Shown here: positions 36,858 through 39,800 of the stretch, in pieces
How the letters are laid out: each line of letters opens with the position of its first letter
Numbering within the stretch: position 1 is the stretch's first letter
Source of the DNA: Salminus brasiliensis
Taxonomy: Eukaryota; Chordata; Actinopteri; Characiformes; Bryconidae
Length of the DNA stretch: 64,000 bases
Direction: 5' to 3'
NCBI RefSeq assembly: GCF_030463535.1
Contig: NC_132892.1
Span: 34,111,109 to 34,175,108, forward strand
Made by a program: the position numbers and the translations under genes
The notes under the pieces: generated by a model
Told to the model about the DNA's origin: nothing
Seen by the model: the letters and a program-made list of their open reading frames with translations, nothing else
Databases searched by the model: none

Positions 36858-39800
36858 CTATATGTGCATTATATATGGTTCTATGAACTCTAAAGGCTCT
36901 AGAGCATCAGGTTCTTCATTGTGGACTGAACCTAATTGGTTGGTGTTGGGGTCTAGACTCTGATAGACTAAATCAGATTGGTTGGTGTTGGGGTTTAGGC
37001 TCTGGTAGACTGAATCTGACTGGGTGGTGTTGGGGTTTAGGCTCTGGTAGATTGAATCTGATTGGTTGGCGTTGATGTTTAGGCTCTGGTAGAGTGAATC
37101 TGATTGGTTGGCGTTGATGTTTAGGCTCTGGTAGACTGAATCTGATTGGTTGGTGTTGAGGTGTAGACTCTGGTAGACTCGACTCATTCTGATGTTGTTC
37201 TGTGTCCCACGGGGATCATTTTCATAATCATTATCATTCTAAAATCACAATAACACAAAGTCTCCATTAACAAATAATTAAAGGACATCAGGCGATTTGT
37301 TCTACCTCATAATGTGCAGCAGATTATGCTCCTTCTGATTGGCTGGTCTAATTTTGCCTCTCAATCCACACAGTGTATCTTCCTATCTACCTACATACCT
37401 ACAGTGCCACATTTCTGATAAGTATCACACTGTTTTAAACCCTTGGCATCTGTGTTTAGTGTAGGTATAGTAAGGGTTGGTCTGGATACTAGATCAACTC
37501 TAGCCTCCAGAAGGAGTGGTAGTCTGGCCCTAGCCCCCAGCACCCAGTGAGCTGGATATATATATTCCCTGATAAACTCCCTCCTGAGAATGGCTGGTTC
37601 TTTGTGTGACACATAGTGTTTGTAGAGGTCAGACTGTAATTTGTTGTTTGTCCATTGTCTCTGACTCAGTCCCCCATTGAAGTCTGAGTACAGGTACACA
37701 CATGGACAAAATTGTTGGTACCCCTCGGTTAATGAAAGAAAAACCCACAATGGTCACAGAAAGAACTTGAATCTGACAAAAGTAATAATAAATAAAAATG
37801 CTATGAAAATTAACCAATGAAAGTCAGACATTGATTTTCAACCATGCTTCAACAGAATTATTTAAATAAATAAACTCATAAAATAGGCCTGGGCAGAAAT
37901 GATGATACCCTTAACTTAATATTTTGTTGCCCAACCTTTTGAGGCAATTACTGCATTCAAACAATTCCTGTAACTGTCAATGAGACAGCACCTCTCAGCA
38001 GGTATTTTGGCCCTCTCCTCATGAGCAAACTGCTCCAGTTGTCTCAGGTTTGAAGGGTGCCTTTTCCAGACAGCATGTTTCAGCTCCTTACAAAGATGCT
38101 CAATAGGATTCAGGGCTCATAGAAGGCCACTTCAGAATAGTCCATTGTTTTCCTCTTAGTCATTCTTGGGTGTTTTTAGCTGTGTTTTGGGTCATTATCC
38201 TGTTGCAAGACCCATGACCTGCGACTGAGACCAAGCCTTCTGACACTGGGCAGCACATTTTTCTCTAGAATCCCTTGATAGTCTTAAGATTTCATTGTAC
38301 CCTGCACAGATTCAAGACACCCTGTACCAAAGCAGCCCTGGAACATAACAGAGACTCCTCCATGTTTCACAGTACGGACAGTGTTCTTTTCTTGATATGC
38401 TTCATTTTTTCGTCTGTAAACATAGAGCTGACGTGCCTTGTCAAAAAGTTCCATTTTTGTCCATAAGACATTCTCCCAGAAGCTTTGGGGCTTGTCAACA
38501 TGTAGTTTGGCAAATTCCAGTCTGTCTTTTTTATTATTTGTTTTCAACAATAGTGTCCTCCTTGGTCGTTTCCCATTAAGTCCACTTTGGCTCAAACAAC
38601 AGCAGATGGTGTGATCTGACACTGATGTTCCTTGAGCTTGAAGTTCACCTTTAATCTCTTTAGAAGTTTTTCTGTGCTCTTTCGTTACCATTCATATTAT
38701 GCGTCTCTTTGGTTTGTTATCAATTTTGCTCCTGCGGCCACATCCAGGGAGGTTGGCTACAGTCCCATGGATCTTAATTTCTGAATAATATGTGTAACTG
38801 TAGTCACAGGAACATCAAGCTGCTTGGAGATGGTCTTATAACCTTTACCTTTAACATGCTTTTCTATAATTTTCTTTCTAATCTCCTGAGACTCTTTCCT
38901 CACTTCCTCTGGTCCATGTTGAGTGTGGTACACACCATGTCACCAAACAGCACAGTGACTACCTGTAGCCCTATATATAGACCCACTGACTGTTTACAAG
39001 ATATTAGACCCTGTGATGCTAATTAGTGAACACACCTTGATCTAACATGTCCCTTTGGTCACATTATTTTCAGGGGTACCATCATTTCTGTCCAGGCCTG
39101 TTTAATGAGTTTTCTTTTTAAAATAATTCTGTTTAATAATTCGGTTCAATGTCAGTGTCAATCAATGTCGGATTTTCATTTGTTCATTTTTATAGAATTT
39201 TTATTTCTTATTACTTTTGTCAGATTTAAGTTATTTCTGTGACCATTGCAGGTTTTACTTTCATTAACCATTTTAATCTGCACCTCTTCTAAGCCATTCA
39301 GAGGCTTAAATGCTTATGAGAGGTGTTGTTGCTCAGTGGTAAAGTACCTGGTCAGCATTTTTAGGGATCAGGATTTAATCCTCACAGGTAGTAAGGATAT
39401 TAATTAAGTCCTATTTTCTGTTCCACTTCTTGACAGCTAAGCATTTGGGTCTTCTCCTAACTTCCACTGGTAGCTCAACCGGTATGACCCCTGATCGGTA
39501 TGCCTGGGTTCAAACCCCACTAGCTACCATTAATGCTACCATTACAAAAGGAACCAGCCCCCTAAAATGAACCCAGCTTAGCAGTCAGATGAAGATCGGT
39601 TAAAAGCAGCCATGTCTGCCCAAAGAGTTGCCCTGGCTTTCCATGGGATGACAATAGGTAGAGAGGTCCTGTAGCAGATCCTGACCCAGTTGCAGAAGTT
39701 TACCTGAAACACAGACCCCCCCTGGGAGCCCCATGAAATTCTACTCAGGGTAGAAGAATGCTTGCCTGCTCCTGCGTGGAATTTGGAGAACTGTGAGGAT

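Follow-up and report, generated by a model that had tools for sequence, protein, structure and literature searches.

Inhibitory receptors normally bear one to few ITIMs, which are placed by slow evolution, and to our knowledge the tandem ITIM/ITSM receptors PD-1, BTLA, and PECAM-1 are not made of tandem DNA repeats. The tyrosines of PD-1 and BTLA are described as lying 25 residues apart, with similar spacing in numerous other ITIM/ITSM receptors (PMC8631942), and the ITIM tyrosines of PECAM-1 and of the catfish receptor IpLITR 1.1b are given as 22 apart (PMC4810170). Multigene families of pIgR-like and CD300-like receptors are known from fish (PMC9321927, PMC3031540). In CagA, the number of EPIYA-C repeats is reported to be able to raise SHP2 binding steeply (PMC4623810). 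The locus described here has receptor tails built from a 42-bp tandem repeat.

The window, by which we mean the whole 64-kb stretch analyzed (C15:34111109-34175108 in a 1.07-Gb assembly), contains a cluster of minus-strand receptor genes. One of these, gene F, was modeled by hand from splice signals, and its six exons are consistent in all phases and give a protein of 396 aa with no internal stop. The order is a signal peptide, two pIgR/CD300-like V domains, an uncharged transmembrane segment, and a tail in a single reading frame, as follows (window coordinates):

43963-44002, minus strand: signal-peptide exon, from the splice/phase model
43540-43839, minus strand: first Ig V-set exon (Pfam V-set E 4.7e-06; pIgR E 3.3e-16)
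43041-43364, minus strand: second Ig V-set exon (Pfam V-set E 4.5e-13; pIgR E 3.9e-23)
42381-42485, minus strand: transmembrane exon, the membrane stretch without a charged residue
42179-42219, minus strand: 41-nt linking exon, phase 1 to 0
36858-37238, minus strand: tail exon with NDNDYENDP (a YxN motif), six 14-residue YQSL units, a degenerate seventh (SVHNEE), and a stop
36924-37179, minus strand: 42-bp coding minisatellite (TRF, 6.1 copies)

With V-set matches above the cut-off and closest likeness to pIgR/CMRF35, gene F is predicted to encode a pIgR/CD300-like receptor, from a family that has expanded in this lineage and is presumably teleost. In a PDB comparison, in which pIgR ranks first, the first V domain also matches CMRF35/CD300 molecules at about E 1e-7. 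A second cysteine pair (KYxC...C type), judged by eye, is present in the first V domain, and the second domain lacks it at the corresponding position. The tail open reading frame encodes 126 aa plus the stop, its six Y-Q-S-L motifs are separated by 14 residues from Tyr to Tyr throughout, and the seventh unit is a remnant in which His replaces Tyr. The acceptor of the tail exon reads ...gtgattttag/AATGATAATGAT (the slash marks the exon boundary), and a Pfam scan of the tails gave nothing above the curated cut-off. The donor after the first V-set exon (window 43540), AAG/GTCGTC, is weak, scoring 0.6 bits against 4.1 to 8.5 for the other four F donors under a hand-entered splice matrix, and skipping or read-through at this site could yield a soluble or altered form of the receptor. 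The last intron is 4.9 kb long, and apart from short matches some 4.5 kb of it is missing from the introns of D and E; transposon-derived DNA separates the tail exon from the upstream exons, 4.9 kb off. Fragments of Tc3/Tc1-type transposases (HTH_Tnp_Tc3_2, DDE_3) lie at 38284-38691 (minus), within this intron, and at 51382-52055 (plus).

Four 42-bp arrays were found in the window by TRF: 6.1 copies in F (score 372), 4.2 copies in E (100% identical, score 352), 4.0 copies in B (score 256), and 2.3 copies in D (score 187). When the window was dinucleotide-shuffled 50 times, no shuffle yielded an array with a period of at least 30 and a score of at least 30, and as a positive control, identical settings regained all four arrays from the real window. 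The tail array is a coding minisatellite, in the sense of tandem in-frame units longer than about 10 bp. As 42 is divisible by 3, a frame free of stops in one unit is usually stop-free throughout the array, and other frames are open as well (two further minus-strand frames in E), so an open frame alone is weak evidence. The real evidence is the acceptor site, the agreement in phase of the six exons of F, and the constraint on Tyr. A G-rich strand as the cause of instability was considered and set aside as suggestive only, since the arrays have G4Hunter values of 0.45 to 0.59 against a window maximum of 0.56, taken over 996 sliding segments of 256 bp, the arrays among them.

The paralogous tails in the window are as follows:

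1-193, minus strand: gene A tail exon, truncated at the window edge (DDYGNN, VYPRL, VYHSK, VYQTL, VYQTL); whole in the genomic stretch L032
6023-6283, minus strand: gene B tail exon with two YQSL and two YESL, and a fifth unit with Tyr changed to Cys
19648-19804, minus strand: gene D tail exon, frameshifted in an A run just past DDDY, so that its three units are untranslated
30378-30638, minus strand: gene E tail exon with four YQSL units and a fifth split at its Tyr codon (SVYTEKTNFLV, stop)
26616-30407, no strand assigned: 3.8-kb transposon in the fifth unit of E, with 20-bp terminal inverted repeats (26616-26635, 30388-30407)

The first-pass annotation had proposed in-frame 42-bp units with one motif each, numbering four in B plus a fifth without Tyr, three coded but untranslated in D, four intact in E, and six in F. 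These counts are correct for all four genes, with Cys as the substitution in B and the frameshift ahead of the units in D. Gene A, which those counts left out, shares a diverged 42-bp-type tail with steps of 14 residues and one of 13. Neighboring genes in the window have a second tail type (minus strand; 12675-12914, 46082-46342, and 58483-58743) with YSTV/YAII-type tyrosine motifs (LYSTVQP, LTYSTVSF), and the 46-kb tail is nearly identical to the one at 58 kb. A 22-bp minisatellite (GTGGTTGCTATTGTGTTGCTAG) at 46668-47141 is unrelated to the 42-bp unit, and short arrays akin to it lie at 45.4-45.7 and 58.9-59.3 kb.

Turnover of units is visible when these paralogues are compared. Units 2 to 4 of E are identical and unit 1 is off by one base, and F2 and F3 are one base apart. 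Genes D and E differ at 161 of 4,152 sites in their shared flanks (3.9%), and before the insertion in E there were five units in E and three in D. A change of two units has therefore happened after the split of D and E or of the alleles behind them. In translated arrays, no more than one base separates the members of 7 of 64 neighboring unit pairs and of 5 of 41 pairs two apart; an 84-bp higher-order repeat in one tail (L009) contributes to the second count. Units differ less within genes than between them (0.093 versus 0.151). The D/E duplicates and the near-identical neighboring units show that units are gained and lost.

The insert in the fifth unit of E has 20-bp terminal inverted repeats (TACACTGAAAAAACAAACTT) that include the outer TA, and it starts at the TA of the Tyr codon. 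Beyond it lie the remainder of the fifth unit and a terminal NPNST-stop resembling the uninterrupted D, so that the insert displaces the last residues and the 3' end of gene E. The genome has 21 matches to its last 408 bp, spread over eight contigs. Two of these, at other sites, are 100% identical, and 20 of the 21 span from the query start to the outer edge (base 407 or 408). The insert is therefore a dispersed transposon, and one that was probably active recently. The single open reading frame scanned (28645-29004) had no Pfam match at E 0.01.

To place the window in its genomic context, we searched the assembly with the F tail exon and obtained 63 matches, which were merged by hand to about 39 places. 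All but two of these (one on C27, the other, short, on C11) are on C15 in a 2.3-Mb cluster (32.1-34.44 Mb). We analyzed 38 stretches, comprising 34 genomic ones plus those of the four window genes B, D, E, and F, with A represented by L032. Units were called at no more than 14 mismatches to the consensus, which gave 230 units in the 38 stretches and none in a mononucleotide-shuffled control of one copy per stretch. A unit was classed as translated when its frame runs without a stop from an apparent tail-exon start (END, YGNN, or similar) and otherwise as untranslated, giving 96 translated units in 26 tails and 134 untranslated units in 24 places. An in-phase AG precedes all 26 tail starts, with 61 to 78% pyrimidines upstream of it; for L009 the script picked an AG inside the exon, and the likely acceptor is a few bases earlier. 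Of 10 upstream stretches, some of which overlap, 9 contain Ig exons of the family in the same orientation.

Motif number varies among paralogues, as first proposed, and ranges from 2 to 15 Yxx[LIV] over the 26 tails (15, 9, 8, and 6 in one tail each, 4 in eight tails, 3 in nine, and 2 in five). In 21 of these tails, a YxN lies within about the first 30 residues. Further untranslated units occur in 12 of the 26 stretches, in all 12 cases after the last translated unit (those of L014 include a separate array 2 kb further on), and in L011, L012, L015, L019, and L021 the units run on past the translated ones while decaying. Stops and frameshifts, beside unit number, set the count of translated motifs. 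The 8- and 9-motif tails belong to genes at C15:34.036 and C15:34.012 Mb. The 15-motif tail (C15:33251055-33251725; L016, L045) is one open frame with YQSV/YKRI in early units and YQSL in late ones, and the V domain upstream has a KYLCRGEC motif. The longest array, with 22 to 24 units (C27:27110351-27111311; L010, L050), is orphan and frameshifted, with no receptor exon within 8.8 kb upstream. Similar 14-letter peptide strings probably occur in predicted fish proteins.

The divergence of the F linker beside an unchanged YQSL had been taken at first pass to suggest selection on the motif. Counting base changes singly, we find 0 nonsynonymous and 2 synonymous changes in the F motif against 13 and 2 in the linker (P = 0.044 in a one-sided Fisher test; P = 0.013 in a binomial test of all 13 nonsynonymous changes falling outside the motif), a marginal result, and no signal in B (1 and 1 in the motif, 6 and 2 in the linker). 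Random placement leaves some four-codon run of F without a nonsynonymous change in 14% of trials, so F alone is unconvincing, and the test limited to F and B, which have too few units, was set aside for a genome-wide one. In the latter, every codon variant unlike the consensus was counted once per locus, and with the near copies L031 and L035 dropped, the set holds 93 translated units at 25 loci and 132 untranslated units at 23 loci (gene D is included as untranslated in the codon-event counts and excluded from the per-unit test of Tyr loss). Ratios of nonsynonymous to synonymous events in translated units are 68:65 in the motif and 286:109 in the linker (P = 7e-6), the direction expected from the comparison of YQSL with linker codons proposed at first pass, yet untranslated units show a weaker skew of the same kind (154:88 and 496:164; P = 5e-4). 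The proper test is therefore of translated against untranslated units.

By that test, YQSL as a whole does not differ significantly between the classes (P = 0.059; nonsynonymous events relative to linker, 0.80; locus-bootstrap 95% interval, 0.55-1.17). The Tyr codon does, with 6 nonsynonymous events in translated and 37 in untranslated units (Fisher P = 7e-4, nonsense excluded on both sides) and a value of 0.27 relative to linker (0.09-0.56), and synonymous Tyr changes show no difference (13 versus 20). Values relative to linker are not significant for Q(+1) at 0.74, S(+2) at 1.26, L(+3) at 1.06, or D(-3) at 0.73, and the Q of the linker NQSD is constrained as well (0.48; 0.21-0.84), so the linker also evolves under some restriction. 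Per unit, again with nonsense excluded, 6 of the 93 translated units have lost Tyr, compared with 35 of the 118 untranslated ones (P = 1.1e-5), as counted without a tree over nonindependent paralogues whose classes rest on the exon-start pattern. The difference holds within the 12 loci that have both classes (3/44 versus 10/44, P = 0.034) and at low (0/31 versus 8/28, P = 0.0014) and middle (2/42 versus 8/32, P = 0.014) divergence, and it is not significant at the highest divergence (4/20 versus 19/58, P = 0.22). In these counts the Tyr codon is under purifying selection solely in units predicted to be translatable, and within the motif it is only for Tyr that selection is shown, with no special protection apparent for Q, S, or L. 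Conservation of L(+3) was rejected as evidence for the motif, as L, I, V, or M occupies this position in 91 of 93 translated units and yet also in 121 of 132 untranslated ones.

We favor, with a probability of roughly 0.66, the reading that the tail would act as a phosphotyrosine docking array on a pIgR/CD300-like receptor, with a valence that evolves by turnover of units. Each 42-bp unit would add one [D]-S-x-Y-x-x-L phosphotyrosine site to a flexible tail, and in most tails a YxN that may recruit Grb2 comes first, nearer the membrane. Src-family kinases would phosphorylate the repeat tyrosines and SH2 proteins would dock on them. The number of translated motifs evolves through gain or loss of units, through stops and frameshifts that strand units, and through insertions. 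Against this reading stand the weak donor after the first V-set exon of F, the remote tail exon, the loss of Tyr in terminal units (B5 to Cys, F7 to His), the lack of significance of the Tyr effect at the highest divergence and of the YQSL comparison as a whole, and the want of excess constraint at L(+3) and S(+2).

Spacing bears on which proteins might read such an array. The Tyr-to-Tyr step, which had been described as fixed at 14, has that value in 70 of 79 steps (25 tails; L031, a near copy of L030, excluded), with the 13-residue step of gene A among the departures. In the same 70 of 79 steps, 10 residues separate L from the next Y, wider than the 6 to 8 of an ITAM just as had been noted, and the canonical YxxL/I-x6-8-YxxL/I is not found in these steps. 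Neighbors at 14 also fall short of the usual, though not strictly defining, SHP spacing of about 22 to 25 between tyrosines, and every second repeat Tyr is 28 apart. These distances suggest that the first good SHP1/SHP2 bridge would form at three units and not at two. If the tandem-SH2 phosphatases SHP1/SHP2 bridge alternate tyrosines, at 28 residues and thus near the usual 25, the usable pairs would nominally number n-2, going from zero at two motifs through four for F to around a dozen for the tail with most motifs. A further step, which we regard as possible but doubtful, is a germline rheostat in which a mutable minisatellite in a large family of fish immune receptors gains or loses SH2-docking tyrosines by single units within populations. 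Signaling threshold would then be a rapidly evolving allelic trait, with tandem-SH2 enzymes reading an n/n+2 register.

Of 107 Yxx[LIV] in the 26 tails, 83 fit the ITIM pattern [SILV]xYxx[LIV] (5 of 6 in F) and 72 fit half an ITAM, [DE]xxYxx[LI], so the earlier label "ITIM-like" describes most motifs but sequence alone allows either sign of signal. ITAM proteins such as CD3zeta and DAP12 have repeated YxxL with an acidic residue before Tyr, as here, and neighboring YxxL motifs 14 apart might likewise bind the tandem SH2 domains of Syk, in which case a long tail would be a multi-ITAM activating tail. This explanation gains from the half-ITAM matches, and since the transmembrane segment of F has no charge for pairing with an adaptor, its tail must act by itself. 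We nevertheless consider it unlikely, because the gap from L to the following Y holds 10 residues where the canonical YxxL-x6-8-YxxL has 6 to 8, and because the ITIM matches include position -2. The tandem ITIMs of PECAM-1, 22 residues apart, are themselves reported to recruit Syk (PMC4810170), a point in favor of such activation. For the docking array, a net inhibitory output appears more likely.

The unphosphorylated YQSL also fits the YxxPhi sorting motif, and the array could instead tune the rate of endocytosis or the surface level of the receptor, which we judge improbable. Sorting predicts constraint on Tyr equally well, and the hydrophobic residue at +3 in 91 of 93 translated units accords with it, although the same residue class in 121 of 132 untranslated units leaves little support from this side. 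One YxxPhi is usually enough for sorting, so up to 15 motifs would be hard to explain, and the D(-3) and S(-2) context would be unnecessary. That the tail is a neutral coding minisatellite, expanded by slippage and tolerated, with a motif conserved through shared recent ancestry, would suit the marginal result in F, the lack of significance in B, the many arrays that are frameshifted or continue untranslated, and the greater likeness of units within genes, but it is very improbable and already disfavored by the retention of Tyr, which 87 of the 93 translated units have kept compared with 83 of the 118 untranslated ones (nonsense excluded), also at low and middle divergence, and by synonymous Tyr changes that do not differ between classes.

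We rate the receptor family and the motif class as already known and the coding minisatellite as a tail as the new part. Among the matches listed in our literature search, no title or abstract opening describes a tandem-repeat ITIM tail in fish. Here the minisatellite duplicates or deletes a whole motif per event. Related receptors in one genome span 2 to 15 motifs as a natural series, for which the untranslated sister units serve as a control, and this makes signaling output testable against phosphotyrosine number and spacing. If alleles differ, such tails would offer a fast route for tuning immune thresholds.

The LITR Ig family differs from the pIgR/CD300-like family to which these genes belong. 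The teleost PIGRL/CD300-like families, to which soluble proteins such as carp SITR are related, likewise have pIgR/CD300-related V-set domains in a clustered multigene family, and the portions of their descriptions that we compared mention no repeat-built tail (PMC3031540, PMC9321927). Catfish IpLITR 1.1b, like the tails described here, is reported to have a membrane-proximal YxN, a proposed Grb2 site, ahead of distal ITIM tyrosines (PMC4810170), but as described it has two ITIM tyrosines 22 apart and an ITSM, compared with up to 15 motifs 14 apart here. PD-1, BTLA, and PECAM-1 share with these tails consensus-like YxxL sites for tandem-SH2 proteins, with reported Tyr-to-Tyr distances of about 22 to 25 instead of 14. 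The EPIYA-C array of CagA, a bacterial effector of unrelated sequence that serves as a comparator only, is described as a system in which repeat number likewise sets phosphotyrosine valence.
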